Source: an uncultured beta proteobacterium
GTDB taxonomy: Bacteria > Pseudomonadota > Gammaproteobacteria > Burkholderiales > Burkholderiaceae_C
DNA length: 53,960 bases
Assembly (NCBI GenBank): GCA_903864505.1
Contig: CAIPGC010000266.1
Span: 1-53,960 of the forward strand
Direction: 5' to 3'
In this document: piece after piece, positions 34,559 through 53,960 of the stretch
How the letters are laid out: every line of letters starts with the position of its first letter
Position numbering within the stretch: the first letter of the stretch is position 1
Made by a program: the position numbers and the translations under genes
The notes under the pieces: generated by a model
The model's database searches: none
Told to the model about the DNA's origin: nothing
What the model saw: only the letters and a program-made list of their open reading frames with translations

Positions 34559-34577
34559 CTCTTCTGAAGGTCACTCC

Positions 34578-35822: not shown

Positions 35823-35834
35823 GGAACCCGATCC

Positions 35835-38800: not shown

Positions 38801-38990
38801 CGCAGGATCGGCCAGTCAACGCGCCATTGGTACCGGCGTGATCGGCGGGAGCATGTTGGGAACCATACTGGCCGTGTTCTTTGTACCGATCTTCTTTGTG
38901 GTGATTCGCGGCCTTTTCAAGGTAAGCGAACGCCAGCACCAGTTTGACATGGAACACAGCCACCAGATGGGAGTAGAAGCTGATGAATAG
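35835..38990 (+). CDS. RND multidrug efflux permease (HAE1, AcrB/MexB type)
   Basis: A 1051-residue inner-membrane proton/drug antiporter. The start MAQFFISRPIFAWVIALFI is typical of the HAE1 family. The proton-relay aspartates are present in MVLVIGIVVDDAIVVVENVER, and the later relay lysine lies near GLSAKNAILIVEFAKDL. Two large periplasmic loops fall between spans 1/2 and 7/8. The length is normal. The gene lies between the adaptor and outer-membrane channel genes. Substrates would probably be hydrophobic or amphiphilic compounds, but they cannot be told from sequence. Confidence 0.96.
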   Translation: MAQFFISRPIFAWVIALFILVVGGVAITQLPVSQYPPVAPPSIVVSMAYPGASAQTLEDSVISVIEREMNGSPGLIYMESVAQADGSGNITLTFETGTSPDLAQVDVQNRLSRAAPRLPAAVTQAGVRVDKARSNFLLFTMLSSDNPDFDIIALGDYASRNVLPEIQRLPGVGQAQLFGTERAMRIWIDPAKLAGFNLSANDVNNAIRAQNAQVSSGAIGDLPNVTGQSIAATVIVEGQLSGAAQFGNILLRANSDGSAVRLKDVARIELGAQGYATSARLNGKPAAGMGVQLSPSGNALATAKAVRERMEQLQTYFPPGVKWTIPYDSSRFVRISISQVAETLVIAVVLVFLVMFLFLQSFRYTIIPTIVVPVALMGTFGMLMALGFSINVLSMFGMVLVIGIVVDDAIVVVENVERIMSHEGLAPLEATRKAMGQISGAIIGVTVVLIAVFVPLAFFKGSVGNIYRQFSAVMLSSISFSAFMALSLTPALCATLLKPVEAGHHHAKTGFFGWFNRGFTSTAKSYEGLVARLLKRAGRYLIIYAAIIAAVAVVYMRLPTSFLPNEDQGTMLVNVQLPPGATQARTLNVMQQVEGFILNQPEVQSMVSVLGFSFSGQGQNAALAFVTLKDWKDRVGAEHSAQALAGRSFGALMQVRDAFIFPLSPPPISELGNASGFTFRLQDRGGKGHDALVAARNQMLGMASKSPVLTQVRPDGLEDAPQLQIDIDRDKASALGVGFDSINSTISTALGSAYINDFPNQGRLQRVVVQADATARMQPDDLLKLNASNAQGKPVPLSAFARTRWVKGAMQTIRFNGYPAMRIGGNAAPGYSTGAAMAEMEKLATQLPAGFAYEWTGQSREEKLAGSQAMILYAFAILAVFLCLAALYESWSIPMSVILVVPLGVLGVLLATVLRGYANDVYFQVGLITIIGLSAKNAILIVEFAKDLQAQGKSVVESALAAAHLRFRPIIMTSMAFMLGVLPLAISSGAGSASQRAIGTGVIGGSMLGTILAVFFVPIFFVVIRGLFKVSERQHQFDMEHSHQMGVEADE

Positions 38991-40359
38991 GCTCCACCTT
39001 GGAACGCTGGCTGCCACGCTGGCAATAGCTGGTTGCAGTCTCATACCCACTTATGAACGCCCTGCTGCGCCCGTGGCGGCAACCTTTCCTACGGACAGCG
39101 CAGGTGCTGGCGCACCACAAGGCGCAGCGGATATGGAGTGGCAGACCTTCTTTCCTGACGCACGCCTGAAACGTCTGGTTGAAATTGCCCTGCAAAACAA
39201 CCGCGACCTGCGCATGGCCGTGCTCGCAGTGGAGCAGACACGCGCTCAACTACAACTCCGCCGCGCCGATGAGTTGCCCTCGTTGAATGCCGGACTCAAT
39301 TTGACACGGGGCCCGAATACTTCGGGAGCCATCGCCAGCACCTACACAGCAGGGCTAAGCATCACTGCCTACGAATTGGACATTTTTGGGCGCGTGCGGG
39401 CGTTAAGTCAGTCCGCGCAGGCTCAGTTGCTGGCATCGGACGAGGCACGAAAGACCGTACAAATCAGCCTGCTTGCGTCGGTGGCCAATACCTACCTCAA
39501 TCTCCTGGCGGACGGTGAACTACTGCGCGTAACACGCGACACGCTTGCCACCCGCCGTGACTCGCTCAAACTTACGCAACTCAAATTTGACAATGAAGCT
39601 GCGTCCAAACTCGACTTGAGTCAGGCGCAATCGTTGTTCGAAGGTGCAAGGATCGCTCTGGCGCAAGTCACCCGCCAGCGTGCACAGGACGAGAACGCCC
39701 TGGTCCTCCTGCTTGGCCAACCACTACCTTCCGATCTCCCCAGCGGGCTCGGACTGCAGGAGCAGAACCTGTTACCCAGCCTGCCAGCTGGCGTTCCGTC
39801 TGATTTGCTGATGCGCCGACCCGATGTGCGTCAGGCCGAGCAAGTTTTGCTTGCTAACAACGCCAATATCGGTGCCGCGCGTGCCGCCTTCTTTCCACGC
39901 ATTACCCTAACCGGCAGCGCAGGTGTGGTGAGCAGCGATCTGGAGAACCTGTTCAGCAACGGCACCTCGGCCTGGACCTTTGTGCCGCAATTGCTGCAGC
40001 CGATTTTTGATGGGGGACGCAATCAAGCCAATTTGGACAGCGCCAAAGTCAGTCGTGATATTGCGGTCGCCCAGTATGAGAAGGCAATTCAAAATGGTTT
40101 CAAGGAAGTCGCGGATGCCCTGGCTGGATACGCCACGCTGGCTGAGCAACTGCGTGCACAAACGGCGCAACTTGACGCTGAAAAGACACGCATGCAGCTT
40201 GTCCAGTTGCGCTTTGAGCACGGTGCTGCCAGTACGCTCGATCTACTCGACGCACAACGTTCCCTGTTCGCTGTGCAACTGGCTCAGGTACAAACTCAAA
40301 CGCTGTCGCATCAGAACCTGGTAACGCTCTACAAGGCGCTTGGGGGCGGGTGGAAGTGA
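38983..40359 (+). CDS. Outer-membrane efflux channel lipoprotein (NodT/OprM family)
   Basis: A 458-residue TolC-like protein that forms the exit duct of the pump. The lipoprotein signal ends at IAGCSLIPTYERP; two OEP repeats follow, with the hallmark LPSLNAGLNLTRGP and RRPDVRQAEQVLLANNANIGAARAAFFPRI in the halves. It starts eight bases before the permease stop, so the three genes form one operon. It meets the FeS/FAD oxidoreductase gene tail to tail with 13 bases between, which marks the right border of the efflux operon. Confidence 0.94.
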   Translation: MNRLHLGTLAATLAIAGCSLIPTYERPAAPVAATFPTDSAGAGAPQGAADMEWQTFFPDARLKRLVEIALQNNRDLRMAVLAVEQTRAQLQLRRADELPSLNAGLNLTRGPNTSGAIASTYTAGLSITAYELDIFGRVRALSQSAQAQLLASDEARKTVQISLLASVANTYLNLLADGELLRVTRDTLATRRDSLKLTQLKFDNEAASKLDLSQAQSLFEGARIALAQVTRQRAQDENALVLLLGQPLPSDLPSGLGLQEQNLLPSLPAGVPSDLLMRRPDVRQAEQVLLANNANIGAARAAFFPRITLTGSAGVVSSDLENLFSNGTSAWTFVPQLLQPIFDGGRNQANLDSAKVSRDIAVAQYEKAIQNGFKEVADALAGYATLAEQLRAQTAQLDAEKTRMQLVQLRFEHGAASTLDLLDAQRSLFAVQLAQVQTQTLSHQNLVTLYKALGGGWK

Positions 40360-40372: not shown

Positions 40373-41665
40373 TCAGGCCTTGCCAAACTTGGTATCGAAG
40401 CGAATTCCTATCTTTTGTAGCAACGGTGTTGGCAGTAAACCGCCAGCACACACAATGACTGCATCATTGCGGTAGGCCTTCACCCCCTCAGAGGTCTTGA
40501 TCTCTATGGAGTCCGGTGAAATTGAATTGACCGACGAATTGAGCATCACCTGGAGTCGACCCGCCTGTTGCTGTTGTTCCAGCATCAGGCGGTTCTTTTG
40601 CTTGACGCGCGAAAACGCAGCGCTGCGGTAGGAAAGAATCACATTCGTTCCTTCTTCCTGCGAAATCGTTATCGCGGCTTCCAGCGCGCTATCTCCACCA
40701 CCGACCACCACTACCGCCTGCTTGGCATACTGCGCAGGATCGGTCAGGCGATACACCACTTTGGCAGATTCTTCACCGGGAACATCGAGTTTGCGCGGCG
40801 TTCCGCGACGACCCATGCACAGCAACACATTCCTGGCCGAATAGGCACCGACGTTTGTTTTGACAACAAAGTGGCCATCCACTTTTTCAATACTCTCCAT
40901 CTGTTCGCGAAAGCCAATCTTCAAACCCGTCTTCTTCACCACATCCAGCCAGAATTCCAGAAGCTTCTCCTTCTGCACCTCGGCAAAGCGCACCTTGCCG
41001 ATCAAAGCCAGTTCAACTGGCGCGGTCATGGCAATCTTCTGACGCGGATAGTGGTACACCGCGCCGCCCAAAGAATCCTCCTGCTCAATCAGTTTGTACT
41101 TCAATTTGTGCGCGATGGCGGATAAGCCCGCCGACAGACCCGCGGGACCACAGCCCACCACCACCACGTCAAATTCAGCAGCGCCCCCTGATGAACGCTT
41201 CTTGATGGCATCCATGGCTTTTCTGCCCTGCTCGGCCGCCTTGCGTATAAGGCCCATTCCGCCGAGCTCGCCCGCAATAAAAATACCCGGGACATTGGTC
41301 TCAAATTCGGCCGAGATGTTCGGAATGTCAATGCCGCGCTTTTCAGTACCAAATACCAATGAGATCGCCTCGACCGGACACGCATCCCGACAAGCGCCAT
41401 GGCCAATGCAATGGGCACCGTTGATGAGCACTGCTTTTCCGTTGACAACCCCTAGCGCGCCTTCTGGACATGACCTGGCACACGCACCCGACCCCATGCA
41501 TTTGAGCGGGTCCACGACCGGATGCAAGGACGGCGGCTCCGCCAACCCCGCTTCGACGGATTCCTGTAATACAGCAACTTCCGCGGTTTCGACGCGTTTG
41601 CGACGTCTTACATAGAAAGCCATCACGAGCAAAAGGACGGCGGCGTAGAGGTACAAATAGTTCAT
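40373..41665 (-). CDS. Membrane-anchored 4Fe-4S/FAD NAD(P)H oxidoreductase
   Basis: About 430 residues. One N-terminal helix (residues 3-19) is followed by arginines, then a ferredoxin-like pair of cysteine motifs: C56-x5-C62-x3-C66-P and C86-x5-C92-x3-C96-P. In each, the second cysteine of the usual CxxCxxCxxxCP pattern is replaced (Ser59, His89). A flavoprotein domain follows with [12 protein letters not shown] for FAD and [14 protein letters not shown] for NAD(P)H, of the thioredoxin-reductase/YpdA fold but without a CXXC redox pair. Similar proteins, with the same Ser/His motifs as I recall, occur beside multiheme cytochromes. It probably feeds electrons from NAD(P)H into the membrane; this is inference. 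The ATG at 41665 starts at the anchor helix. It is the last gene of the cytochrome cluster. Confidence 0.85.
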
Positions 41666-41713
41666 GATGAGAAATGACCGGTATGCGCAGATTGTGCCAA
41701 AGCCCAAAACGCT

Positions 41714-42751
41714 TCAGGGCCGATAGACTTCGCCAATTTTCAGAGTCACGCCCGATGCGCCAACATCAACCGGTCCGGTTTGACCGACCAAGTCTCCAGA
41801 CTGCGGGGTTGCGCTTCCGTTTTTACTGATTCTGGCGGACAGGACTACTTTTTCTACACCCGAGATTTTGGAATCAGGAGACATTGCCATAGAGTCATTG
41901 ATCACCACGGAAAACGGCAAATCCTTCACCTGCTTGCGGAGTATGGCCACCGGCAGGCGTGTGCCAACCAGCGAGCGCACAGTAACAAATACTGAATCTT
42001 GCGGCGTAGTCTGGCCTAACAGGGCCGGTACAAGAGAAATTGTGGCCCCAATCTCCGCACTGGACTTTACCGCCGCACTCACCTTCCCCGAACTTGGGAT
42101 GCCCGACATCGCTCGCGCCATGTCCAGGTCCGCTTGAATTTGCTTGGCGAAAAAATTTTCGGTCCCGCCGTTGGCGACCACCTTGTCCCAGTGTTTGATG
42201 GCAGTGACATAGTCCTTATGGTCAAAGGAATACTTGCCAGCGATGGCTAATCCCTTGACATTGTTTGGGTCCAACTTAAGCGCCCGTTGCACTAGTTGCA
42301 TTGGCTCACCTTCCATACTCCGGTTATTCTTTACCGCCAACGCGTCTGCATAATCAACCAGCAATGCCGCATCACCCGCACTCAACTGGACCGCATGTGC
42401 ATAGGCATCTGCTGCTTCAGAAGCTCGTCCAACGACACTGTAAGTTCGCGCGAGCATGGCCCAGCCCCCCGCGTCGGCCGGATTGTTCTTCAGTCTTTCA
42501 GAAAGACTTTTCACCATTGCCTCAACCTTTTCCGGATCGACGGACGGTGTGCCCGTCACGTCGCTTCTCCTGGTAGCGTTTGAGTCTGGAGTTGGCGCGG
42601 AATGGTTCCACCGGTAAACCCCAGCAATCACCAGTACGAAGAAAAGTGCAAGTCCAATCAGCAACCCCCTCGGCACAGGGGCATAGGGAGATTCCTCCTG
42701 CAATGGAGTGGCCGGTGCAAGCGTCGGTGTATCTACTTCGGTTGCAGTCAT
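41714..42751 (-). CDS. CcmI/CycH-like TPR protein
   Basis: A 345-residue protein with one membrane helix near residue 35 (LLIGLALFFVLVIAGVY), three to four TPR repeats (about residues 80-220, e.g. AGGWAMLARTYSVVGRASEAADAYAHAVQL), and a C-terminal periplasmic domain (from about 225) like that of CcmI/CycH, containing SVFVTVRSLVGTRLPVAILRKQVKDLPF. CcmI delivers apocytochromes to the haem lyase in c-type cytochrome maturation. No other ccm gene is in the window, and it starts one base after the stop of the 24-heme cytochrome gene, which suggests a helper dedicated to that cytochrome; this is inference. Confidence 0.82.
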   Translation of the reverse strand: MTATEVDTPTLAPATPLQEESPYAPVPRGLLIGLALFFVLVIAGVYRWNHSAPTPDSNATRRSDVTGTPSVDPEKVEAMVKSLSERLKNNPADAGGWAMLARTYSVVGRASEAADAYAHAVQLSAGDAALLVDYADALAVKNNRSMEGEPMQLVQRALKLDPNNVKGLAIAGKYSFDHKDYVTAIKHWDKVVANGGTENFFAKQIQADLDMARAMSGIPSSGKVSAAVKSSAEIGATISLVPALLGQTTPQDSVFVTVRSLVGTRLPVAILRKQVKDLPFSVVINDSMAMSPDSKISGVEKVVLSARISKNGSATPQSGDLVGQTGPVDVGASGVTLKIGEVYRP

Positions 42752-42752
42752 A

Positions 42753-44558
42753 TTACCCACCGCGACCCCTAATTCGCTTCCAAGAACTCGTCAGGTGGCA
42801 TTGCTCACATCGAGTTCCAAAACGACTCTCGTGTGGATCTTTGCCTCTGTGGCATGAATAACAATTGGCAGGAAGGGCCGCCGCCGCCTTGCCCGTCGGT
42901 GCGGGTTCTGTGTGGCACGCAGCACATTTAACCTTGGCATGCAACCCGACAAGCGGATAGCGCGTAAGCTTGTCATGGTCGTAGGACCAGAGCGGCCAAC
43001 CGCGAGAGTTGTGGCAGTTCTCGCAATTCGTCCCAAATGCCTGCTTGTGCTTGTCCACCTTCAAGTGACAACTTACACAATCCCGCTTTGCATCCCTGAA
43101 ACGCGAGGTTACATGGCACTCCTTACAGGGTGTCAACGCGTGCAACCCGTTCAACGGGAACCTCGCCTTGTTGTGATCAAAGTGTTCCACCTTCCAATTG
43201 CGGTCGGTATGGCATTGCTCACATTTCTGTCCAAGCTGCGATTCGTGCTTATCGTCCTTCTTGTGACAGTTAAAACACTCCATGGTTGTATTGCGGAAAC
43301 TCTTGAGGTCAGCGTGGCAGGTCTTGCAGACGATCTTTTTGTCTGCATGGGCGTTGCGCAAGGGGAAACGCGTCTTGGCGTGGTCGAAGCGCAAGTGGGG
43401 CGACTTCCAACCGAGATCATCATGGCAATCCGCGCACTTGTTGCCCAGAGTGGCTTCGTGCTTGTCATCCTTCTTGTGGCATGAGAAACATTCCTTGCTC
43501 GCCTCCTTGAACATGACTCCCTCATGGCAGGCCTTGCACTTGGCTTCGGCGTGCTTGCCGAAAAGGGGGAACTCTGACTTGCTGTGGTCAAACTGTGTCT
43601 TTTCTTTCCAGCCCTTCTCATTGTGACAGTTCTGGCATTCATGGCCCAATGACTCTTTATGTTTGTCGTCCTTGCGATGGCAAGCGTAGCAATCCTGCGA
43701 AGTTTTCACACCAAATAGTTTGCCTGTGTGGCAACTGGTGCATTTTGTCTGCACATGCTTTCCGCGCAGCACGTACTTTGTATCAACATCATGGTTGAAC
43801 ACCGCAGGTTTCCACGCCTTGGTGTTGTGGCACGACTCGCATTTCTCACCAAACTGTCCTTTGTGTCCCTTTTGATCATCAATTTTTCGATGGCAACTTA
43901 CACAAGTTTTTGGCGTTTCCTTGTAGGTGGCATCTTTGTGACACTCAGAGCACTTGGTATCAATGTGTTTTCCGGTGAGAGAAAATTTGGTCTTTTCATG
44001 GTCGAACTTTGTTTCTTTCCAGTTCACTTCTGAGTGGCAGTCATTGCAGGTGTTACCGAGAGAGCCCTTATGCACATCGTCCTTGCGGTGGCAAGCCTGA
44101 CAGGTATTAGGTGCCTCGCGAAATTTCTTGCCGGCAACGTGGCACTTTTCACAGTCAGTTTTCTGGTGCTTCCCATTCAGTATGAAAGCAGTGGATTTGT
44201 GATCAAAATTCGTCTTATCCAACTTCACCAACTTGGCATCCGCACCACCGTGTTCCGAATGGCAGGTCCGGCATGCCTGCTGCTTCATCTTGCCATGAAG
44301 CCCGGTATGGGCCTGAACATCGGCGCGAGTTTCCTTGTGGCAATCCAGGCATCGTTTGTCCTGGCCAGGACGATCAAACTTGATATGGCATTGGGCGCAA
44401 TCCTCCTCCCACTTGGCGTGCACCTTCGCAAGTTTGCCCGGCGACATAATAGACTCAATTCCCTGTGCCGAAACCCAGGACACTTGCAAATAAAGGAACA
44501 AAAATGCGACAAGGCCCGCCAGATGTCGCCAGGAAGTGGTGGTTGGCATTGCGTTCAT
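42753..44558 (-). CDS. 24-heme c-type cytochrome with seven tandem three-heme repeats
   Basis: A 601-residue secreted cytochrome. A signal peptide (residues 1-31) is followed by 24 CXXCH haem sites: three in a leader (CAQCH, CLDCH, CRTCH) and 21 in seven repeats of 66-69 residues. Each repeat reads FDH ... GKH ... CxxCH ... CxxCH ... DDKH ... LG ... CxxCH ... W, and so supplies three extra histidines for its three haems. It resembles the cytochrome c3/multihaem family and probably stores or carries electrons across the periplasm. It is flanked by the membrane b-type cytochrome gene (12 bases upstream) and the CcmI-like gene. Its exact partner is not shown. Confidence 0.93.
   Translation of the reverse strand: MNAMPTTTSWRHLAGLVAFLFLYLQVSWVSAQGIESIMSPGKLAKVHAKWEEDCAQCHIKFDRPGQDKRCLDCHKETRADVQAHTGLHGKMKQQACRTCHSEHGGADAKLVKLDKTNFDHKSTAFILNGKHQKTDCEKCHVAGKKFREAPNTCQACHRKDDVHKGSLGNTCNDCHSEVNWKETKFDHEKTKFSLTGKHIDTKCSECHKDATYKETPKTCVSCHRKIDDQKGHKGQFGEKCESCHNTKAWKPAVFNHDVDTKYVLRGKHVQTKCTSCHTGKLFGVKTSQDCYACHRKDDKHKESLGHECQNCHNEKGWKEKTQFDHSKSEFPLFGKHAEAKCKACHEGVMFKEASKECFSCHKKDDKHEATLGNKCADCHDDLGWKSPHLRFDHAKTRFPLRNAHADKKIVCKTCHADLKSFRNTTMECFNCHKKDDKHESQLGQKCEQCHTDRNWKVEHFDHNKARFPLNGLHALTPCKECHVTSRFRDAKRDCVSCHLKVDKHKQAFGTNCENCHNSRGWPLWSYDHDKLTRYPLVGLHAKVKCAACHTEPAPTGKAAAALPANCYSCHRGKDPHESRFGTRCEQCHLTSSWKRIRGRGG
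42774..44207 (-). repeat. Seven tandem 3-heme repeat units within the cytochrome gene
   Basis: Seven units in protein positions 118-184, 185-253, 254-322, 323-390, 391-459, 460-525 and 526-595. Period is 66-70 residues (about 204 bases). DNA identity between units is partial, so this is an old duplication under selection for the haem and histidine pattern. The final two units vary most (GLH for GKH, DPH for DDKH). Confidence 0.9.
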
Positions 44559-44570
44559 CCCAAATACGAG

Positions 44571-45464
44571 TCAGTAGGCATGCACTGCAAAGATGTGCAC
44601 GAAGGTGCTGATCACCAGCAGGAACACGAATGGTATATGGGCAATATGCCAGGCGGACAACATCCATTCATAGGAGGAAAACTGGGCTACCCGCACCACG
44701 GCATTCAGATAGCGACGCACCAACTTGTGCGCCAGACGCCGATGGTCGCCCAACTGCCGTGCGTTCCAGTTGTTGCGCATCTTCAATTTCTCCAGCCTGC
44801 CGCGCAGCAGGAGAACGCAGCGCACGTAAGTGATGAGTTGCACGCTAGGCAACAGAAAGACGCGGTACAAATGGTCGACCCAACCCGGCGTCGGATTCTG
44901 CACTTTGACTTTGAAACCGGCTAATACAACCTCCACCTTGGGCGCAAAACTCAGACGAGACCGTGCTCCATCCTGTTCAATACCAGCACGCGCCTTTAAC
45001 TCCTCCAGGGCAACGCGTTCGCCATGCAAACCGCGATTGATACGCGTGTAGATGAAGCGCCCCACGACGCCACTTGCGGCCACGATGATCATGCTCCACA
45101 GCGCCACCCCGGCGTTGAGCGACCCAAAGCGAAATCCTGAGTGAATCAGTATCAGCACCGGCCCTCCTATGCCCAGCACCATGTGCCACGCCAGCCAGCG
45201 CCGCACCGGTCCCCAGCCAAAGGTGAAACGGAAATATTTGCGTATTGGATAACTCAGGAGCAACAACATCATGCTGGCCCCCACCACGCCTATCCAGTAA
45301 CCTGCGTCCTCACCGGCTTTGAACAGATTAAGCAGGCTGATTTCTCGCGCACCCCAAACCACCAGGGCAATCCCGGCGTACACAAACATGTCTTTGGACA
45401 GCGCAGGAATCTCTCGCCGGACATTTTCCTGAGACTCAACGTCCGATGCCTCCTTCACGCTCAT
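44571..45464 (-). CDS. Cytochrome b-like integral membrane protein
   Basis: A 297-residue inner-membrane protein with about five spans. Four are near the N-terminus (residues 27-47, 56-72, 93-110, 118-138), then a basic cytoplasmic-looking region of about 130 residues, then a last span (275-292). Histidines 94 and 108 in span 3 and 273, 276, 290 and 295 around the last span could ligate b-type haems. It resembles ferric-reductase-like or b561-type quinol-interacting proteins. The ATG at 45464 has GGAAGG upstream and overlaps the propeller gene stop (ATGA); longer frames reach into that gene. In context it could transfer electrons between the quinone pool or the FeS/FAD protein and the 24-heme cytochrome. 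Confidence 0.75.
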   Translation of the reverse strand: MSVKEASDVESQENVRREIPALSKDMFVYAGIALVVWGAREISLLNLFKAGEDAGYWIGVVGASMMLLLLSYPIRKYFRFTFGWGPVRRWLAWHMVLGIGGPVLILIHSGFRFGSLNAGVALWSMIIVAASGVVGRFIYTRINRGLHGERVALEELKARAGIEQDGARSRLSFAPKVEVVLAGFKVKVQNPTPGWVDHLYRVFLLPSVQLITYVRCVLLLRGRLEKLKMRNNWNARQLGDHRRLAHKLVRRYLNAVVRVAQFSSYEWMLSAWHIAHIPFVFLLVISTFVHIFAVHAY

Positions 45465-47779
45465 TGCAGTTCCTTCCTTTCGGCAAATTGATCGTTGCCA
45501 GCCAGGGGACGGTATTGAGCTCTCCCACCCAGTTCGCCGCGACGCCGTATCGTTATCCAAGCGGCCAAAAGCACCATCAACCAAAGCACAGGGTCCGGTC
45601 TTGCGGTACGGGCGATTGAGCAACCGCCCCCCGATGATTCCGAGGCCACCGTCTGTGTTGCCTGCACTGGCGAAGCGACCGAGACTCCAGCCGACGAGGC
45701 CACAAATATTCGACCATCCATAAATCGCACCGCGTTAATCAGCGCTGAGGGCAAACTGGAAGATCCACCGCCATTGGCGTTGATCGATTGCATAGAAAAA
45801 CCGGAACCGATCTTCCAGGACCAAATTCCACCACCGTATATTCCCGCGTACAGCATCTCGCCATCGGTGGCCAATGAAGACACGCTTTCACCGTCGCCGT
45901 TGGAGAGCAACGGAAGGCCTGGAACGTCAGTCCAGAGGGCATCTGCCTTAGCGCACTGGCGTAAAAAACCATCGCCGCCAGCGAAAACCTGCCCTGCTGA
46001 CACGGCAAGACGACTCAACACCGGAAGCAATTTGGACGCAAACTGGGCCCCACCAACCCGGGTCCAGGCAGGAGCAGGGATATTGGGTGCGTAGTCATTT
46101 GCAAAATAAACTGCGTTTTCATAGAGTCCGTCTGCGTTGCGTGCAATCCCTCCCGCCGCATAAATTTTCCCTCTGTCGATCGTCAAAGCCCTGACACTCA
46201 AATCTGCAGGAAAAGAACCCATCATTTCCGTGGGGATAGAAAAACTCGGCTGATCAAGTAGCGATTGAATGACCAACCCTCCACCCGACAAAAGATGCAC
46301 TGCACCCCCCTCATCGATTGTCGTAGCGTCGCGCCCTACATACAAAGCCTGGCTTCCCACGGCAAGCGCTCTCACATCGAACGCATTTCCCATCGAATAC
46401 CACGTTCTGGTTGATTCACGGTACGCGAACACCCCATTCGTCGTTCCAGCATACAAGACCTTGTTGGCTGTATCAATGGTAAGAATACGCAGGCGACCGA
46501 GGGATGCACTGAACCAGTAGTCCGCTGTAAGTCCTGTTCGCTCCCAAGTAGTGCCTGCGTCGCTACTCCTGAGGACATCGGCATAGCTGGGACGCCCGCT
46601 TGCCTCAACAATTGCGTACAAATTGGACCCCAGCAAAACCACATCTGCGACATTAACGTTATTCAGGCGCTGACCTGCACTGGCTGCCGACACTGGACCA
46701 TTTAGGACCAAAGGAGCAGTCGGACTCAACCACTTGAAGAGGTCCTCCAGCAAATTGCTATAAACACCGAACTCTGTCGCCCACAGCAGAACGGACTGAC
46801 TTTGTCCAGCAAATTGCACCGCCGCATTCACGTGGTTTGTCATGGGAAACACCGGGCCTGGCAATAAGTTCGGAGCATCCGAAGTCAGATCATCGAAGGG
46901 TGACGAGACCAAAGCGCCCGAATCAGTCGCCACCGCCACAACCCATTGAGGCGGGTTGGAGGCTGCACGCAAGACATTTACTCTGTTACAGCTGGAAGGC
47001 AGGGTCTCGCTCGCGAAGGACAACCTGCGCCAATTGACCACAGCAATTCCGCCCGACAAATCACCCTGAAAAATCCCGCCATCAAGAGTGCAGGCAAATG
47101 CCCATCGGCTTGAATTCGAGGCAATGGACACCACCGTACCTGATAGCGCTACCTTCGCCAAGCCTGATTCGCTACTCACAAAAGTATTCGATAGTATGTC
47201 CAAGAGAAACACCGTATCAGATGTTCCGATAGCAATATTCCCCTCCAGTTCACCCAATGCAGTCACATTCTGACGCGACGGAACACTCACCGCCTTCCAG
47301 CCAGGGGCAAGGCCATTGTTTGTCGTTGAGTACACTCGAGAATCACACGCGGCGGCAAGGTACAAAGTATCGGCAACCCGCTGCAACATCGTATAGTCAC
47401 ATGCCACGATGGCCGGATTTACCAGTCGGGTCCATTGAGGCGCACTCCCAGCGGGTGTCACATACACACCTCCGTCCGTTGCCGCATACACAAAGTTGCC
47501 CAAGTACGCCAAAGAGTACACACGGCGCCCACCTTGAGACGACATGCCCGCGTTGGCTGCAACCCAGGTTGCGCCCACATCAGTACTCAGGAACATGCCA
47601 TTCAAGTCCGTCCCTGCGTACAGCGAGTTCTGTGCAATCGGGTCAGAAAGTAGCGCCGTCACACTCCCACCCGAGGGGCCAGCAGAGGTCCAGTTTGGCA
47701 CCAACTGCGCCCACGCGTTTCCCGCGATGACCAGCACAATGCAACCCAAGGCGCGGAGCCATCGATTCAAAAGTTTCAT
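45461..47779 (-). CDS. Secreted beta-propeller (BNR/WD-like) protein with JDVT-CTERM-type C-terminus
   Basis: A 772-residue protein with a signal peptide ending at GNAWAQ. The body contains repeated sialidase/BNR- and photosystem-assembly-type propeller blades such as SLYAGTDLNGMFLSTDVGATW, FVYAATDGGVYVT, VLRSSDAGTTWE and LYAGTTNGVFAYRES. At residues 717-744 it has GGGCS, a DP pair and a hydrophobic helix, followed by RRR: the pattern of a JDVT-CTERM sorting signal (see that entry). Ribosome site AGGAG precedes the ATG. Likely role: a surface- or membrane-anchored scaffold or sensor for the electron conduit; it has no haem sites. Residues 745-772 extend beyond the basic end, which is unusual. 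Confidence 0.8.
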   Translation of the reverse strand: MKLLNRWLRALGCIVLVIAGNAWAQLVPNWTSAGPSGGSVTALLSDPIAQNSLYAGTDLNGMFLSTDVGATWVAANAGMSSQGGRRVYSLAYLGNFVYAATDGGVYVTPAGSAPQWTRLVNPAIVACDYTMLQRVADTLYLAAACDSRVYSTTNNGLAPGWKAVSVPSRQNVTALGELEGNIAIGTSDTVFLLDILSNTFVSSESGLAKVALSGTVVSIASNSSRWAFACTLDGGIFQGDLSGGIAVVNWRRLSFASETLPSSCNRVNVLRAASNPPQWVVAVATDSGALVSSPFDDLTSDAPNLLPGPVFPMTNHVNAAVQFAGQSQSVLLWATEFGVYSNLLEDLFKWLSPTAPLVLNGPVSAASAGQRLNNVNVADVVLLGSNLYAIVEASGRPSYADVLRSSDAGTTWERTGLTADYWFSASLGRLRILTIDTANKVLYAGTTNGVFAYRESTRTWYSMGNAFDVRALAVGSQALYVGRDATTIDEGGAVHLLSGGGLVIQSLLDQPSFSIPTEMMGSFPADLSVRALTIDRGKIYAAGGIARNADGLYENAVYFANDYAPNIPAPAWTRVGGAQFASKLLPVLSRLAVSAGQVFAGGDGFLRQCAKADALWTDVPGLPLLSNGDGESVSSLATDGEMLYAGIYGGGIWSWKIGSGFSMQSINANGGGSSSLPSALINAVRFMDGRIFVASSAGVSVASPVQATQTVASESSGGGCSIARTARPDPVLWLMVLLAAWITIRRRGELGGRAQYRPLAGNDQFAERKELQ
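45548..45631 (-). other. JDVT-CTERM-like sorting signal at the propeller protein's C-terminus
   Basis: Encodes GGGCSIARTARPDP, then the hydrophobic stretch VLWLMVLLAAWITI, directly followed by RRRGE. The GGGC start, the DP before the helix and the arginine cluster are what I recall of the JDVT-CTERM domain family, which co-occurs with an MrtJ-type glutamic intramembrane protease; a candidate for that enzyme is encoded at 49647-50084. Confidence 0.7.
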
Positions 47780-47845
47780 GAGAATAGCTCCTGCTTCGCG
47801 AGTAAAAACGAGGTAGATGCAATACAGATCAACATACCTCTCCGT

Positions 47846-49186
47846 TCAAAAGGAATACCAGGGACCATCTTCCGCACCAACTTGCTGCCATATCGACAGA
47901 TAGGTACGTCGACCATAGAAGAAAGGTAGACCCCATGAAAATGAAGGGGCACTGGAGGCACTTGCAACATAGGTCCCGCCCAAGTACGGAAATGCCGTAT
48001 TGGATGTTGAAAACGACGCGTCCGCATTGCCAATGTCGAAGTCGACGTTAACCCTGTTCGCCTGAGGATTGTCCCCATCTGACAAGATTGCGGAGAGATG
48101 CAACGCGCTGGAAGGGCAAAACCAGCTTGAGTTAACGCAGTTTCCAATGTCCATGTCAGGAAAAAATAATGCGTTCGTTCCGGTGTCCAAATAGCTATTT
48201 GTAAACAGTTTCCCCTTGTAGGTCGTAGTGACGTTCAGATAGGACGGAAAGTTGTGCTGCCAATCGACACCCAGGTGAATTCGAGTTGCAGATGCAGGCA
48301 ACTGATTGTTTGTGGACGAGTTAATACCAAAAATCAACTCTCCATTGACTTTGGATGCGCCAAGGCCAGTAACCTGAGGCAGAACCAACACGACACCGTT
48401 GTTATGCTGCGGCAACGCTGCCACGGGATTGAATACCTGAAAGTTGCTAGGCACCGCTGCCGGCCTACAGTCCGATGCGCTAGTTACGCTTGCAGGGCAG
48501 CCATAGTACTGCACATACGAATTACTGTAGTCACCGGCGAGGCACATTTGTCCACAATCAAGTTTTACACTGCCAATTCCTAGAATACCGTTAGAACCCA
48601 AGGCACTGGCCGTACTCAATACCTCGCCATTGACCGCATCGGAACAATCCTGCGGGACTTTCGGTAAAGCGTTTACATCATCCTGAATCAACTGTATCGG
48701 GATCGCACTGGCAATTTGCGCTCCGAGTCCAACGTCTGCAACCTTATTCGGCCCCCACAAGCCGCCGATGACAAAGGGATAGCACTCATGTGCGACAGAC
48801 GCTGTCCCATTAGCGCCGTCGTTCGCGAGAACGACCGACGGCAAGTTAAGTTGCTTAACCTTGCTCGCCAAAACCCGAAGCCCTACCGAACCGGTATCTA
48901 CCTGAATGTGGTCAATGGACTGACAACGTTCCGTCCCGGGTTCACAAACTACAACTGTGGTGTACAGAATGTTTGCCTGCGCCAATGAAAACCCACCATC
49001 TGGTCCACCGTCGACCGTCACAGCCACGCTGTTGAGTTTGGGCAATACAACTTGACCCACAACCGGTCCTTCGTTCTGGCCTTGAAGTCCTCCGCCACTG
49101 ATGGTAGTGACAGTTGAATTCTCGCCCCCTCCGCACCCCGCGAGGACCGAAATCCAAATGAGCAGTTGGAACAACTTCATCCGCAT
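47846..49186 (-). CDS. DUF3443 family lipoprotein with two DTG motifs
   Basis: A 446-residue protein, probably a lipoprotein (SVLAGCGGGEN), of the DUF3443 family. Sequence features are the early HIQVDTGSVGLRVLA and the later NSYLDTGTNALFFPD, which look like the two DTG active-site loops of pepsin-type aspartic peptidases, with cysteine-containing loops between. The family has no proven function that I know of. It starts four bases after the DUF2844 stop, the usual pairing of the two families. The ATG at 49186 fits the signal; the ribosome site is weak, consistent with coupling to DUF2844. Peptidase activity is a hypothesis. Confidence 0.82.
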   Translation of the reverse strand: MRMKLFQLLIWISVLAGCGGGENSTVTTISGGGLQGQNEGPVVGQVVLPKLNSVAVTVDGGPDGGFSLAQANILYTTVVVCEPGTERCQSIDHIQVDTGSVGLRVLASKVKQLNLPSVVLANDGANGTASVAHECYPFVIGGLWGPNKVADVGLGAQIASAIPIQLIQDDVNALPKVPQDCSDAVNGEVLSTASALGSNGILGIGSVKLDCGQMCLAGDYSNSYVQYYGCPASVTSASDCRPAAVPSNFQVFNPVAALPQHNNGVVLVLPQVTGLGASKVNGELIFGINSSTNNQLPASATRIHLGVDWQHNFPSYLNVTTTYKGKLFTNSYLDTGTNALFFPDMDIGNCVNSSWFCPSSALHLSAILSDGDNPQANRVNVDFDIGNADASFSTSNTAFPYLGGTYVASASSAPSFSWGLPFFYGRRTYLSIWQQVGAEDGPWYSF

Positions 49187-49190
49187 GGTC

Positions 49191-49682
49191 TTATTCAATC
49201 TGGTCCGGACTGAAATCTGGCGGCAGCAGGGACCTCCGGTAAGCCCAACCTGAGAACAGATGCAAATGAGCATCGGATTTGACTACCAGATCACTACTGG
49301 AATGCCTGAAATTCCGACGTATACCGACCTGCCCAGAGTTGTCTCGGGCCGACTTAACGTATCCTGAGTAAGAAGCACCGAGCAACTTCTCCAGGTTGGG
49401 TTTGTATTGCGTGCGCCAACTCACCCCGAAAATAATGCCGTCGCTTGATACAAATTCCCGAACCAAGGAACCATCCCGCATCGCAAGGTTGTAGACAGAG
49501 TATGCGGGCCTAATTTCGAGGTGGCGTCGGGCCGCCATGCGCATACTATCCCCCTGGGTTGTAGACTCCACCTCTCCCAACGCAGCCCTGGCAGGATCCA
49601 TGGCAAGCAACAGGGCCGAAAAAACTACTGAAACACCCAAGAGAAAATGCGCCCTGCTCGTTCCCCATCCAGAATTAACCAA
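49191..49682 (-). CDS. DUF2844 family exported protein
   Basis: About 163 residues. A signal peptide ends in DPARA, giving a mature start ALGEVES, followed by the DUF2844 core (RRHLEIRPAYSVYNLAMRDGSLVREFV, GIIFGVSWRTQYKPNLEKLLG). The function is unknown; the family is typically encoded directly before DUF3443, as here. No ATG lies before the signal peptide, so a TTG at 49682 was proposed; a longer frame to 50045 reads through the antisense protease gene and is not credible. The C-terminal part (SAHLHLFSGWAYRRSLLPP-like) carries the family end. The 5' end overlaps the divergent protease gene. Confidence 0.75.
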   Translation of the reverse strand: MVNSGWGTSRAHFLLGVSVVFSALLLAMDPARAALGEVESTTQGDSMRMAARRHLEIRPAYSVYNLAMRDGSLVREFVSSDGIIFGVSWRTQYKPNLEKLLGASYSGYVKSARDNSGQVGIRRNFRHSSSDLVVKSDAHLHLFSGWAYRRSLLPPDFSPDQIE

Positions 49683-50084
49683 TGGATGGCGTACTGCCTG
49701 TGCATGATCTGTGGGCCGTTTGGAGCCTACCTCCTGAAGCGAACACAGAATGCTCTTGAACCCGATGCGTGTGCGGTTGGCAGTCTGCTTATCTTGTTGC
49801 TGATCTCGCCCATTGCAGAGGAGGTGATCTTTCGCATGGGTGTCCATTCCTACCTTCTGCGTCATTTCCAATCTCGCTTGAGATATTTGAGTCTTCCGAA
49901 TCTGTTGACAGGCATATTGTTCGGCATGTCGCACGCAATACTCCATGTCTCGCCGAATGAAATACTCTGGACGCTTCCTGCGTTGCTCATCGGTTGGACT
50001 TGGGAACTCAGTGGAGCTCGAATTGCCGCCCCTGTTTTTGTACATATTTGGTTCAATCTTTGTCTGGTACTTTTTTCCTGCTAG
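49647..50084 (+). CDS. MrtJ-like glutamic-type intramembrane protease (CPBP/CAAX family)
   Basis: A 145-residue membrane protein. The CPBP motifs are visible: EEVIFRMG (motif 1, EExxxR) at about residues 58-65, FGMSHAILH (motif 2, FxxxH), and HIWFN (motif 3, HxxxN) near the C-terminus. Three or four hydrophobic spans are seen. It is much shorter than typical CPBP proteases, as expected for dedicated CTERM-processing enzymes. It is the only plus-strand gene within the cytochrome cluster. Its tail overlaps the barrel gene by four bases and its 5' end overlaps the DUF2844 gene. An ATG at 49686 is an alternative start. It probably cleaves the JDVT-CTERM tail of the propeller protein. Confidence 0.8.
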   Translation: MRPARSPSRINQWMAYCLCMICGPFGAYLLKRTQNALEPDACAVGSLLILLLISPIAEEVIFRMGVHSYLLRHFQSRLRYLSLPNLLTGILFGMSHAILHVSPNEILWTLPALLIGWTWELSGARIAAPVFVHIWFNLCLVLFSC

Positions 50085-52582
50085 AACAGGTCGTAGCGAT
50101 ACCCAACATAGAAGAAATAGGCCGAAGATGTGTCGTGATTGGTTGGACCGTCGGTAGTCGATTGCTCAAAAATAGTTTCGCCGGATACGCTTGCACGCTC
50201 GGACAATTTGTATGAGAGCCGCAAACCAGGCGATACCCTGTTCACTTTTGTTGCCGTATTGTCTGTTTGGGTGTACAGGCTGATGGAGAACTCGACGCTG
50301 GCTTTGTTATCGAAAATTCCGGTCAGGTTGTTGTACGAGAACTGCGTGCCCTGTAACGTACCGCTATTGAGAAGACTCAGATTGAATCCATTGATGTCGC
50401 GGCTTGAATAAAGGTTTGAACCCGTCAGCTGGAACGACAAAGTGTACTGGGCACCGGTGGCGGGCATGGCTTGGAAGTTGCCTATGGCTGGCAATTCACC
50501 AATCTCACTGTACCGAATGTCGGCGGAAGACTGCCACTTGGGTGAAATTGGACGGGAAACACTTAGCATGGCCTGGCGCGCCTGTGCCGCGGTTCCAAGA
50601 GCTAGTTCTTTCACCTCGGCAAGGCTCCTGAGTTGCAGCAAAGTCTTCAAAGACGTCGTGCCTGAGCTAATCAGTGCATCACTCAACTGCAAAGAGGGAG
50701 CCTTCCTATCGTCTACCAACAGCGTAATTGACGTATCCATCGGCCCCTGCATGGAACCCTGCAAAGTAAAGGCATTGATCTTCTCAAAATTCAGGTCGTA
50801 GTCCATCTGCGAGAAAACTGACACCCCCTCGCCAAAATAGCGAACCTCGGCACCTACGGCACGTCTGTCTGAAATTTCCTCGGTCCTTTGGTCCACCAGC
50901 GAGATGGCTCCTCCCCACCGTTCAAACAGATTATCAGCTTCCAACATGACGCCAAATAACTGCTGGGACGGAGCCGAAACCAGGGTGTTGGCTGGAACAC
51001 CGAGGGACCCACTGAGTTTGAGGCTTCCAGCAACGGGCATGGACAGCGACACTCCGTCGAACAAACCAAACATGGACCCTGCAATCGCCGACTGCCTTCC
51101 TACTCGCAAACCCAAGCGGTTATTCAGGTTCTTGTAATCCAGGTAAGCGGCGCCCAAAGAACTTTGTGCTTGCGAGGTTGCTATGAAATTGCTTGCCGAG
51201 CTTCCCCGAATAACAAGCTTCAAATCCGACGATTCAGTCTTGTAGCGCCCCGTCATATCCAAACTGGTAACCAATGCCGATTGATTGGTTCGGCTCAGAG
51301 TATTTTGATCAATACCCGCTGAAATATTCACCAGAGATTCGGATTTCGAGCTACCACCGTAGTAATACTGCGATAGGCCACCTGAATAGCTGAAACCTGG
51401 CTGTTCCTTAGAGCCAAGGCTACCTGATGTCGCATTCACTTCAGCACCTGTGCCCATCCCAATCGCTGAAAGACGCTGTGCAACACGTTGCGCCGCTTCT
51501 CCATTTGGATACAGCCGCTGGTACAGCTTGTACTCAATGCGCGCACGGTCAACGTCTCCCGTACCCTCCCACGCATTGCCAATCCATTCCTGCGCTAGTT
51601 CCGTCGAAGTGTTGGGTGGCAACAGCAACGCCCGGCTCAAAACGTCGACCGCGTCACGAAAACGCTGTTGCGAAAGTGCCACCTTTGCCTGCCCCAACAA
51701 AACCTGCGCATCAGAATTAATCTGCCCTGGAGTCTGTTGCTCAGGCACGTTGCGTGTCTCCTCCGCAGCCAGCGGAAGTTGGGGCGCGGTTTGTTCCGCC
51801 ATTTGGCTAGGAACTACTTCGGGAACCTTTGCCGCTGCGACTTCTGCATCCAAACGAAGAATCGAAGCTGAAGGAAACTGCGACAAAACTCTGATGCGGA
51901 CCACCTCGGCGTCCTCCAATGTTTTGAAGTATCCGACCGCCAGCGCTTGTCCGGCCCCACCCTCAATAGCAACTTGGCGCGAAAAAACCACATAGTCTTG
52001 CAATGCTACAGGGACCCTCGGGAAGTCCGCCGATTGCTTCGAATCCAATACTTTCAATACGACGGCAAAGTTTCTGTCGTTGACCGACTCGACCATCGCA
52101 GGCAATGGCGCGAGCTTTCCCTTCTGCCCCTCAATACTGACAAACTCCATATCGATCGAGCGTGCATCAGGACCCTGCCGCGCCAATACCTGCACTCTTT
52201 TACCAAACTGTAGACTCAATATCTTGGGCCGACCACTCCCCACCGGCGCGTAGGTCAAAGCGATATCTGGGTACTGACCTCTGGCGATGAGTCGTCTGCT
52301 CTCCTGCATCACTGGTCGCCACACCGCTTCGTCAGCAGCAGCGATGTCAAAGCTGATTTGCATCAAATCTGATATCGCAGTGGGGGCCTGGCGCAGAAAT
52401 CGCACATTGGTACCAAATGAGATTCTGGCCAATGTTGCGCCGCCCGCATCTATCCACTCAAGACGGTCAATCGTCTGGGCAATTGACTGACCTCCCGCAA
52501 ACATCAGGCACAGTAACCATGGCCAACTGCGTCGCAACACGGGGTATCCAATAATGGATGCAAGTAGATGCTGCACTCTCAT
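50081..52582 (-). CDS. Outer-membrane barrel protein with AMIN-, SPOR- and TPR-like segments
   Basis: An 833-residue exported protein. A signal peptide (about residues 1-36) is followed by an N-terminal region resembling AMIN or FimV/PilQ-like beta domains, a SPOR-like stretch (VFSRQVAIEGGAGQALAVGYFKTLEDAEVVRIRVL), a linker with PEQQTPGQ, and TPR repeats (residues ~300-375: AKVALSQQRFRDAVDVLSRALLL). The last 430 residues alternate polar and hydrophobic residues with aromatic girdles and end in a terminal Phe (GYRYDLF), as in outer-membrane barrels. It may be the pore through which the multiheme cytochrome passes electrons. The start overlaps the upstream cytochrome stop (ATGA). Confidence 0.75.
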   Translation of the reverse strand: MRVQHLLASIIGYPVLRRSWPWLLCLMFAGGQSIAQTIDRLEWIDAGGATLARISFGTNVRFLRQAPTAISDLMQISFDIAAADEAVWRPVMQESRRLIARGQYPDIALTYAPVGSGRPKILSLQFGKRVQVLARQGPDARSIDMEFVSIEGQKGKLAPLPAMVESVNDRNFAVVLKVLDSKQSADFPRVPVALQDYVVFSRQVAIEGGAGQALAVGYFKTLEDAEVVRIRVLSQFPSASILRLDAEVAAAKVPEVVPSQMAEQTAPQLPLAAEETRNVPEQQTPGQINSDAQVLLGQAKVALSQQRFRDAVDVLSRALLLPPNTSTELAQEWIGNAWEGTGDVDRARIEYKLYQRLYPNGEAAQRVAQRLSAIGMGTGAEVNATSGSLGSKEQPGFSYSGGLSQYYYGGSSKSESLVNISAGIDQNTLSRTNQSALVTSLDMTGRYKTESSDLKLVIRGSSASNFIATSQAQSSLGAAYLDYKNLNNRLGLRVGRQSAIAGSMFGLFDGVSLSMPVAGSLKLSGSLGVPANTLVSAPSQQLFGVMLEADNLFERWGGAISLVDQRTEEISDRRAVGAEVRYFGEGVSVFSQMDYDLNFEKINAFTLQGSMQGPMDTSITLLVDDRKAPSLQLSDALISSGTTSLKTLLQLRSLAEVKELALGTAAQARQAMLSVSRPISPKWQSSADIRYSEIGELPAIGNFQAMPATGAQYTLSFQLTGSNLYSSRDINGFNLSLLNSGTLQGTQFSYNNLTGIFDNKASVEFSISLYTQTDNTATKVNRVSPGLRLSYKLSERASVSGETIFEQSTTDGPTNHDTSSAYFFYVGYRYDLF

Positions 52583-53960
52583 GGCACCACCGGCACTGGC
52601 TTGGTACGGTCCGAAGAACGCATCTGCCGAGGAATCATTTCGCTGTTCGTCACATGGCAGCTCACGCAAGTCGAATTTCCTGCCACTGGCTTGTAGGACG
52701 GCGACAAGTGTGAATAAGCCACCGGCAGCCAGGCCACCGTTTTGTGGCAGCTATCGCAGGAGCGTGCTGTCATAAAGTGTCCCGTTGGCTTGGCAGGGGC
52801 TCCCATCCCGTTATGACAAACCAGACAGGTATTGAACGAGATTCCTCCATGGTTGAAATACGCAGGCTTCCAGGTCGACGTCCGATGGCAGGTATCACAG
52901 GAACTGGTAACCATGAGGTGACGTGCCGGCATGCCAGATGCTCTCATTCCATCGTGACAGGATTTGCATTTTCCAGCCTCCACGCCCTGGTGGTCATAGT
53001 CGGCTCCCAGGGTTCCTCGCCCTGACTGTTCAACCTGCAGGTTAGGCAGCAAACTACCCAGAGTGGCATTCACTGCGGCATTGCGAATGATGGGCTTGAT
53101 CACCGCACGGAAGCCTCCGCTGGAATACTTATGACAGCCCGAGTTGTCACAGTCATTGGGGGCGGCGCGAGCAGTCACTGAAGTGTGTGCGCTTGGTCTC
53201 GCTTTCCAATTACTAAAGCCGCCAAACCAGGTATAGCCCTTCTCATGGCAGCTCATGCAAGTCTGTGAAGCCGCTGCAGTGTGCGCAGCAGCTGTCATGG
53301 GGGTACCGGAGAAAGTCGTGAAATTGCTCTTGGAATGGCAAGCTTCACACGCGATACCCGCAACCGGCACGTGGGTAGCCGTCGACGGTGCAGTTGGAGA
53401 GCCCCCGGCGGCGAGCGGCATCAACTTGGGTTGATAGGTAATCGGAGGCGGTGCGGTACAGGCAACCTGCGTCGTGCATCCGGCAAACGGTCCCTTTCCG
53501 TTCCCTGCTGTGTGGCAGGCAATGCAATTGGAGGTAATTCCAGTGTGCACAATTGTGCTGGACGCCAATGCGGCCAGAGAATAATCCCCTGCAGCAAGGT
53601 GACATGTAGCGCAATTGGTCACTGAAGTCGAAATGTGTCCATTTGGCATACCGGCCGGCGAAAACGCGGTCGTACTGTTGTGGCACAGCGAACAGTCTCC
53701 CCCCGGTGGATGCGCCGCATCGGCAACACTGTAGGTTGTCGCAGCGGAGTATGGTCGCGTCTGGAATCCCTTGTAGGACGCATTTGCAACGACGGTGGTT
53801 GGGGTAATCGGATACTGGTTCATTCCCATCCAAACATAGTTCTTCTCATGGCAGGCATTGCAACCGCTGCTGATACCCGAGTGCGTCATGGCCGACGTAG
53901 GAACAGGGTTCAGGAATGCCGTTCCAGGCGCAGTTTTCACTGACGACGCGTTGACCAGCC
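52579..53960 (-). CDS. Large multiheme c-type cytochrome, N-terminus beyond window
   Basis: At least 460 residues of a secreted multihaem cytochrome; the frame continues past the window edge, and the GTG at 53940 is an internal valine. Eleven CXXCH sites are visible plus one CX4CH (CDNSGCH, bases 53131-53151). The repeat HxxxxxxxCxxCHEKxYxWxG occurs at least twice. Glycine-, alanine- and threonine-rich linkers separate the haem modules, fitting a surface-exposed or secreted cytochrome rather than a compact periplasmic one. It is translationally coupled to the barrel protein gene, a pairing that recalls porin-cytochrome complexes. The C-terminus (TKPVPVVP) has no sorting signal. Confidence 0.88.
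   Translation of the reverse strand, partial: LVNASSVKTAPGTAFLNPVPTSAMTHSGISSGCNACHEKNYVWMGMNQYPITPTTVVANASYKGFQTRPYSAATTYSVADAAHPPGGDCSLCHNSTTAFSPAGMPNGHISTSVTNCATCHLAAGDYSLAALASSTIVHTGITSNCIACHTAGNGKGPFAGCTTQVACTAPPPITYQPKLMPLAAGGSPTAPSTATHVPVAGIACEACHSKSNFTTFSGTPMTAAAHTAAASQTCMSCHEKGYTWFGGFSNWKARPSAHTSVTARAAPNDCDNSGCHKYSSGGFRAVIKPIIRNAAVNATLGSLLPNLQVEQSGRGTLGADYDHQGVEAGKCKSCHDGMRASGMPARHLMVTSSCDTCHRTSTWKPAYFNHGGISFNTCLVCHNGMGAPAKPTGHFMTARSCDSCHKTVAWLPVAYSHLSPSYKPVAGNSTCVSCHVTNSEMIPRQMRSSDRTKPVPVVP
53131..53151 (-). other. CX4CH haem-binding variant in the partial cytochrome
   Basis: The site reads C-D-N-S-G-C-H instead of the usual CXXCH. The spacing is known in some tetrahaem cytochromes c3. 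Whether the haem is attached here cannot be told from sequence. Confidence 0.8.

Follow-up and report, generated by a model that had tools for sequence, protein, structure and literature searches.

He et al. 2017 (PMC5566968) describe PCC3, a candidate electron conduit of four proteins: a porin, a giant extracellular multiheme cytochrome (MHC), a periplasmic MHC and an inner-membrane protein (IMP). The IMP is about 300 aa long and is marked by an SGxxG and two WX3HX13H motifs. The periplasmic MHC carries about 21 hemes, with 21, 24 or 27 motifs in Gallionellaceae (PMC10734462), and the figure given for the extracellular MHC is 34 CXXCH (PMC5566968). The same article likens the IMP to ferric reductase/NOX and to quinone-active cytochromes b and favours quinone exchange; PCC4 and other MHC–IMP pairs, it reports, mostly include another redox protein in the cluster. 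PCC3 occurs in iron oxidizers (PMC5566968), and its published hosts include Leptothrix (PMC5566968, PMC13386937). Here, we describe a gene cluster of an uncultured beta proteobacterium, located at positions 40373–53960 of contig CAIPGC010000266.1 (GenBank assembly GCA_903864505.1); the whole contig (C266), with its 53960 bases, is called the window. The cluster is a well-conserved variant of this published candidate type and encodes, in addition, an apparently membrane-anchored iron-sulfur/FAD protein (FeSFAD) that is strongly linked to the IMP. We give a probability of about 60% to the reading that NAD(P)H would feed electrons through FeSFAD into the IMP and on to the outer cytochromes. Two features go beyond the PCC3 descriptions in the cited articles: the co-inheritance of FeSFAD with the IMP, and a clade, including the window, with a rearranged gene order and a JDVT-CTERM/MrtJ surface-sorting pair.

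Comparison with PCC3 and other conduits

The host draft genome has 4.04 Mb in 332 contigs and is 94% complete. The cluster lies on the minus strand (as do the features below unless stated otherwise) and runs from the contig edge at 53960 down to 40373. In the direction of transcription, it encodes an extracellular-type MHC (eMHC), an outer-membrane protein with TPR matches and a presumed barrel (TPR-barrel), a DUF2844 and a DUF3443 protein, a JDVT-CTERM propeller, the IMP, a 24-CXXCH cytochrome, a CycH/CcmI-like protein and FeSFAD. A first-pass annotation of the bare sequence had named these genes and a plus-strand protease gene among them, and reading frames, CXXCH counts and family matches place every one of them within 40373–53960. 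It had also counted three ATGA overlaps, of which two exist (52579–52582 and 45461–45464); the other junctions examined are, with the chosen start codons, gaps of about 1, 10, 12, 48 and 66 bases, in agreement with its range of 1–66.

All four PCC3 proteins can be recognized. The eMHC (52579–53960) is cut by the contig end, and the remaining 459 aa, with the 5′ end of the gene lost, show 11 CXXCH (52579–53958) and a Cytochrome_C7 match (E = 2.8e-17). It directly precedes the TPR-barrel gene (50081–52582), with which it shares an ATGA overlap; PCC3 likewise has its porin gene beside an MHC gene. By eye, the porin-type protein begins with a signal peptide; its N-terminal part matches SPOR-like and TPR families weakly, its C-terminal part is a presumed barrel and its final residue is F. 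Relatives of it are present in 47 of the 91 loci searched, canonical ones (defined below) among them. The periplasmic cytochrome (42753–44558, 601 aa) has 24 CXXCH behind a start that resembles a signal peptide by eye. Exactly 24 CXXCH are found in 77 of 80 related loci, the remaining three being cut. Besides the two cytochromes, just four window frames of at least 100 aa hold even one CXXCH, so this richness is not due to chance. The IMP (44571–45464), a putative two-heme cytochrome b of 297 aa counted from ATG, contains WLAWH-X13-H, SGVVG and WHIAH-X13-H. It is 33–64% identical to IMPs from 13 other loci, and among its relatives longer than 200 aa both H motifs are kept in 80/83 open reading frames (ORFs) and SGxxG in 82/83. 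Five transmembrane helices are given for the PCC3 IMP; a simple hydropathy scan of the window protein returned overlapping hydrophobic segments with no distinct helix count. No Pfam match was found for the IMP at E ≤ 0.1, and a sequence search against solved structures returned nothing useful for the IMP or the DUF3443 protein.

The locus shares with MtrCAB, MtoAB and PioAB the principle of a heme wire through an outer-membrane barrel, and PF22113, the MtrC/MtrF domain, weakly matches the 24-heme protein at 28 bits (cut-off 30). In contrast to these systems, no MtrB/PioB-type barrel and no decaheme MtrA/PioA family was detected, either for the barrel and the IMP at E ≤ 0.1 or for nine proteins of the cluster at E ≤ 0.01. 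The first-pass annotation was thus right in setting the locus apart from Mtr and Pio, but it had also held it to be unlike Pcc, and here the features fit PCC3 as published (PMC5566968). A new kind of conduit was considered and dropped for this reason. Because the IMP motifs, the 24-CXXCH partner and the relatives of the 24-heme protein, among them loci of Leptothrix discophora and Sphaerotilus mobilis, all fit, the locus is filed as PCC3 on its sequence features and not as a categorically new conduit; the assignment draws on features, gene order and these relatives, and not on a reference PCC3 sequence identified by locus tag.

A scan of genome contigs with four 24-heme proteins gave 353 relatives; the best 80 of these, a set biased to close relatives, were examined. 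They comprise eight loci of the window type, described below, and 72 loci outside this list of eight, here called canonical. The order IMP, 24-heme cytochrome, eMHC, barrel is kept in the 72 canonical loci wherever length allowed it to be judged. The IMP precedes the 24-heme gene in 78/78 loci with room, the eMHC follows it in 69/69 canonical loci with room, and a barrel follows the eMHC in 29/29 canonical loci that contain the eMHC end and enough sequence beyond it; in the other 40, the eMHC runs off or leaves no space for a barrel. A stricter first count of adjacency, in which each ORF reached upstream as far as its first start codon, had given 74/78, 60/68 and 15/22, respectively, and the values above are a recount by ORF ends with wider limits, made after the misses had been inspected. 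Some loci have a common source: L025 and L073 are the same contig, the same holds for stretches of other genomes, and L011 with L033, and L024 with L039, each come from one genome. The median eMHC of the 29 loci has 34 CXXCH, in agreement with the figure given for PCC3 (PMC5566968). Collectively, the anatomy of the cluster and the conservation of its gene set in other genomes support well a trans-envelope electron conduit, as the first-pass annotation had proposed from a set of genes for all layers of the envelope; it had made its case depend on the genes co-occurring in other genomes, and they do.

Some extracellular PCC3 cytochromes are far larger. Single frames with 86–93 CXXCH occur in L090 (11785 onward), L058, L099 and L106, and those of L090 (92 CXXCH) and L058 (90 CXXCH) terminate inside the locus; the largest cytochrome known to the authors of PMC5566968 had 85.

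FeSFAD and its co-inheritance with the IMP

FeSFAD (40373–41665) starts with a hydrophobic anchor followed by RRRKR, continues with a two-site Fe-S domain and ends in a YpdA/FNR-like FAD–NAD(P)H domain. Its Fe-S motifs, CxxSxxCxxxCP and CxxHxxCxxxCP, carry Ser and His, respectively, where the second Cys would stand; this holds for 33/33 FeSFAD proteins of at least 380 aa from the loci, with the standard motif in 0/33. Among solved structures, FeSFAD is closest to YpdA, thioredoxin reductases and ferredoxin–NADP reductases of that fold. The kinship with YpdA bacillithiol reductase and thioredoxin reductase-like ferredoxin–NADP reductase concerns the FAD–NAD(P)H part, to which FeSFAD adds the membrane anchor and the Fe-S domain. 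Across 15 FeSFAD sequences, GGGDSA followed by YRxxxFxRxK is invariant and is reminiscent of the NADPH site of thioredoxin reductases. The Cys of GGGPCG is the redox cysteine in YpdA. It is replaced by Ala in 15/15 sequences, including that of the window, and no CXXC occurs in the window FeSFAD, which argues against a thiol role.

Among 200 genomes of the order, FeSFAD was found in 10/10 IMP-positive and 0/190 IMP-negative genomes (Fisher p = 4e-17), and the 24-heme gene occurred in the same 10 genomes as the other two. In 299 genomes of the family, the numbers were 22/22 and 1/277 (p = 2e-32). As genomes are not independent, both p-values are descriptive only. The strong IMP matches all had E < 1e-80 and the FeSFAD matches all had E < 1e-195 (limit 1e-100). 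Weak IMP matches (E about 1e-16 to 1e-18) in G058 and G196 of the order sample and G354 and G514 of the family sample, all without FeSFAD, were counted as IMP-negative. That paired searches had hit the same genomes was judged from identical labels among the matches listed.

The distance between the two genes varies. In 9/9 order genomes other than the host's own, FeSFAD lies beside the IMP gene in divergent orientation, with about 230–350 bases between match ends. Within the family, both genes are on one contig within about 18 kb in 13/22 genomes and on separate contigs in 9/22. In G439, an assembly of 6 contigs, they are on different contigs and hardly near each other. Linkage varies while co-presence persists, as expected of a functional partner of the IMP. 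FeSFAD is absent from the four-protein descriptions of PCC3 in the cited articles, and the main text of PMC5566968 does not contain the term 'FAD'.

One further arrangement was observed in L030 (3889–9585), where a ccm operon lies between the barrel and a CycH–FeSFAD pair; it encodes an ABC ATPase, CcmB, a Cytochrom_C_asm protein, CcmE, CcmF, a thioredoxin-like protein and CcmH, and the 24-heme gene was not in the stretch examined.

A rearranged clade with a JDVT-CTERM/MrtJ pair

The window differs from PCC3 as published in its order, with the eMHC–barrel pair first and the IMP–24-heme pair later, and in its additional genes for DUF2844, DUF3443, the JDVT-CTERM propeller, MrtJ, CycH and FeSFAD. 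The full window-type order is eMHC, barrel, DUF2844, MrtJ (antisense), DUF3443, JDVT-CTERM propeller, IMP, 24-heme cytochrome, CycH, FeSFAD. L034, L037 and L041 have the complete set save for a cut eMHC, L036 has it save for the eMHC end and FeSFAD, and L011, L024, L033 and L038 are partial; adjacency of eMHC and barrel is seen in L034, L036, L037 and L041 as well. In a tree of the 24-heme proteins, the window and the eight window-type loci form a group of nine with a branch SH-aLRT of 100, nested among the canonical proteins under midpoint rooting; the partial L093, L094 and L100 and eight loci without a 24-heme gene were left out of this tree. The window-type eMHC leaves the contig in all eight cases at hand (the window, L011, L024, L119, L128, L129, L130 and L131), as repeats probably disrupt the assembly there; L128 has at least 25 CXXCH before its contig ends.

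The propeller (45461–47779) is a secreted protein, BNR-like by weak matches, such as those of its relative in L034, and its C-terminus scores 39.6 bits with NF033191 (cut-off 27), which identifies a JDVT-CTERM signal. This part has the same make-up in the window protein and in all six relatives whose sequence extends to it: a Gly-rich segment, a Cys, a transmembrane segment and an Arg-rich tail. The protease gene (49647–50084, plus strand) encodes a MrtJ-like glutamic intramembrane protease with an NF033192 score of 60.3 bits (E = 8.3e-16; cut-off 75) and a Rce1-like PF02517 match (E = 1.5e-10), and it is the sole MrtJ match in the host genome at E ≤ 0.01. The proteases encoded at the equivalent position in L034 (78.3 bits) and L036 (76.1 bits) exceed the cut-off of 75, and those of L037, L041 and L024 reach 71–75 bits. 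JDVT-CTERM and MrtJ are described as a two-gene neighbourhood that is sporadic in beta- and gammaproteobacteria (PMC11980579). As in that pair, a tagged target with an invariant Cys is combined with a CPBP-type glutamic protease; the differences are that DUF2844 and DUF3443 intervene, that the protease gene is antisense and that the pair lies inside an electron-transfer cluster.

Among the 80 loci, propeller relatives occur in six and MrtJ relatives in four, all of the window type, with the partial L011 and L024 in addition. A general role of JDVT-CTERM/MrtJ in PCC3 was rejected on these grounds; the search models were built from the window proteins, and other JDVT-CTERM proteins would escape them. 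In the family sample, MrtJ (E ≤ 1e-12) was found in 50/299 genomes, 28 of them over the cut-off and 10 also with a strong IMP match. It is commoner with the IMP (10/22 IMP genomes versus 40/277 others, p = 0.001), and its coordinates put it within 20 kb of the IMP only in the window and, as a sub-cut-off match, in G250. Of twelve MrtJ stretches (1.8–3.3 kb), none has a relative of the window propeller or a frame with at least three CXXCH, and a different protein with a similar C-terminal tail occurs in four. Recruitment of the pair into this PCC3 clade is therefore probable.

The DUF3443 lipoprotein (47846–49180; PF11925, E = 3.6e-102) has a LAGC lipobox by eye and two Asp-Thr-Gly motifs, DTGS and DTGT. 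Both motifs are present in 9/9 relatives longer than 440 aa and one in each of four partial relatives, and the protein could, by this motif, be pepsin-like. A second DUF3443 gene of the host genome (L007:9910–11487, contig C129 of G000) has no cytochrome-like frame around it among frames of at least 180 aa, so the family is not limited to electron-transfer loci. The DUF2844 exported protein (49191–49682; PF11005, E = 1.4e-25) has an uncertain start, TTG at 49682 or 49640. Neither DUF2844 nor DUF3443 was mentioned in the literature searched. Both genes follow the barrel in the canonical-order contig L025/L073 and also in L026 and L027, where the 24-heme gene was not in the stretch examined; in the canonical-order L072 they come after the barrel too, there behind CycH. 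In L035 and L039, DUF3443 adjoins the IMP without a JDVT-CTERM gene. The genome with L024 and L039 has two DUF2844–DUF3443 pairs, one next to JDVT-CTERM and one next to the IMP and the 24-heme cytochrome. The CycH/CcmI-like protein (41714–42751; PF23892, E = 7.4e-30; PF23914, E = 1.8e-22), with one N-terminal hydrophobic segment, presumably serves heme attachment as a cytochrome c maturation protein.

The host genome also contains canonical pieces: contig C121 (L023:1–3610) holds an IMP–24-heme pair and the start of an eMHC, and contig C102 (L004:11023–14097) holds the end of an eMHC and a barrel. These are probably one canonical PCC3 locus split by assembly. The assemblies with the variant loci L036 and L037 likewise hold canonical copies (L067 and L066, respectively), and this coexistence suggests that variant and canonical PCC3 have different jobs. 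The lower GC content that the first-pass annotation had noticed by eye is borne out at third codon positions (GC3 of 0.586 for nine cluster ORFs versus 0.697 for 24 other window ORFs). Its further idea of gain by transfer is only hinted at by this low value, as the same variant has ordinary GC3 in four relatives. Downstream, RND efflux genes (34503–40359) are convergent with the cluster; the adaptor was named by family match and the pump and the OprM-like protein by eye, and the OprM-like gene stops at 40359, facing the cluster's end at 40373.

Proposed electron source and direction

The favoured reading, to which the probability given above applies, treats FeSFAD plus the IMP as a split counterpart of an NADPH oxidase or ferric reductase (FRD). 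The likeness consists of two H-X13-H helices as b-heme site (PMC5566968) together with an FAD–NAD(P)H module; the differences are that here the flavoprotein is separate, YpdA/FNR-like and equipped with two Fe-S sites, and that the IMP has no Pfam match. On the cytoplasmic face, NAD(P)H would reduce FeSFAD at its FAD; both Fe-S centres would then relay the electrons to the pair of b hemes in the IMP, and thus across the inner membrane. From there, they would enter the 24-heme protein, acting as a periplasmic wire if its motifs are loaded with heme, and then the eMHC, which may form a complex in or on the TPR-barrel. FeSFAD would be the flavoprotein half of a split gate, giving direct NADPH input instead of, or beside, the quinone pool; a preference for NADPH over NADH is presumed. 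Outward electron flow from NADPH is downhill. It is also compatible with findings in S. lithotrophicus ES-1, where the genes of the two PCC3 clusters stood at lower levels on Fe(II) citrate than on thiosulfate, and were also lowered by an FeCl2 spike (PMC8788666). In the window clade, MrtJ would be expected to cut the C-terminal, Cys-containing tag of the propeller, and the product might be lipid-anchored on the cell surface. A broader claim, that PCC3 in general would be an NADPH-powered exporter bypassing quinones by means of the Ser/His Fe-S centres, with one clade adding a lipid-anchored propeller, is held tentatively, at a little short of even odds.

Several observations weigh against these proposals. 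The ES-1 data oppose Fe(II) oxidation by PCC3 in that organism and give no positive evidence for export, the copy-2 PCC3 IMP of Sideroxydans sp. CL21 was raised in cells capable of iron oxidation (PMC12442390), the authors who defined PCC3 proposed quinone exchange by the IMP (PMC5566968), and no functional test of any PCC3 was found in the literature searched. As to FeSFAD, the family genome G262 (92% complete) has it without a detected IMP, the variant locus L036 lacks it in the stretch examined, and it adjoins CycH or ccm genes in several loci. Genes on separate contigs of a draft may still be close, and most of the nine genomes concerned have tens to hundreds of contigs. As to the propeller, the window MrtJ scores below its family cut-off.

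The alternatives differ mainly in the role they assign to FeSFAD. In an ordinary PCC3, the IMP would trade electrons with the quinone pool and FeSFAD would be a loosely related accessory, in line with the published comparison of the IMP with quinone-active cytochromes b and with the description of PCC3 by four proteins (PMC5566968). A loose accessory would not be expected to be co-inherited with the IMP nearly always, even from another contig, and this account is unlikely, though it deserves attention. Were the conduit instead to run inward, extracellular Fe(II) or minerals would supply electrons and FeSFAD would make NADPH. The presence of PCC3 in iron oxidizers and the CL21 result point that way, whereas the lower levels of both ES-1 clusters with Fe(II) citrate (PMC8788666) point the other way, and we consider inward flow distinctly unlikely. 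There is also an energetic objection to it, in that NADPH formation from Fe(II) is steeply uphill, with no visible energy input along this path.

FeSFAD might also belong to a side-branch of maturation, in which it would, together with CycH, deliver electrons for heme or thiol reduction during the assembly of the giant cytochromes. Its place after CycH, in the window as in other loci, and the ccm genes between barrel and CycH–FeSFAD in L030, allow such a role. Yet FeSFAD stands next to the IMP itself in the nine order genomes, it is found beside the IMP with no CycH within the examined flank in, e.g., L083, L095, L101, L102 and L103, and the window protein lacks both CXXC and the YpdA cysteine; a maturation role is therefore improbable, slightly more so than inward flow, but a live alternative. 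Finally, TPR and barrel parts occur together in polysaccharide exporters, and the absence of an MtrB-type family match for the barrel would suit an exporter with unrelated cytochromes as neighbours. The adjacency of eMHC and barrel in 29/29 informative canonical loci, and in L034, L036, L037 and L041 of the window type, makes such an explanation extremely improbable.

PCC3 is a candidate conduit whose heme counts are among the largest reported. A flavoprotein that is co-inherited with the IMP offers a concrete entry point to its function and electron source. The link between FeSFAD and the IMP calls into question both the assumed connection of PCC3 to quinones and Fe(II) oxidation as its default role. 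If the JDVT-CTERM/MrtJ pair indeed acts in one PCC3 clade as proposed, it would be a surface-sorting system serving an electron conduit.

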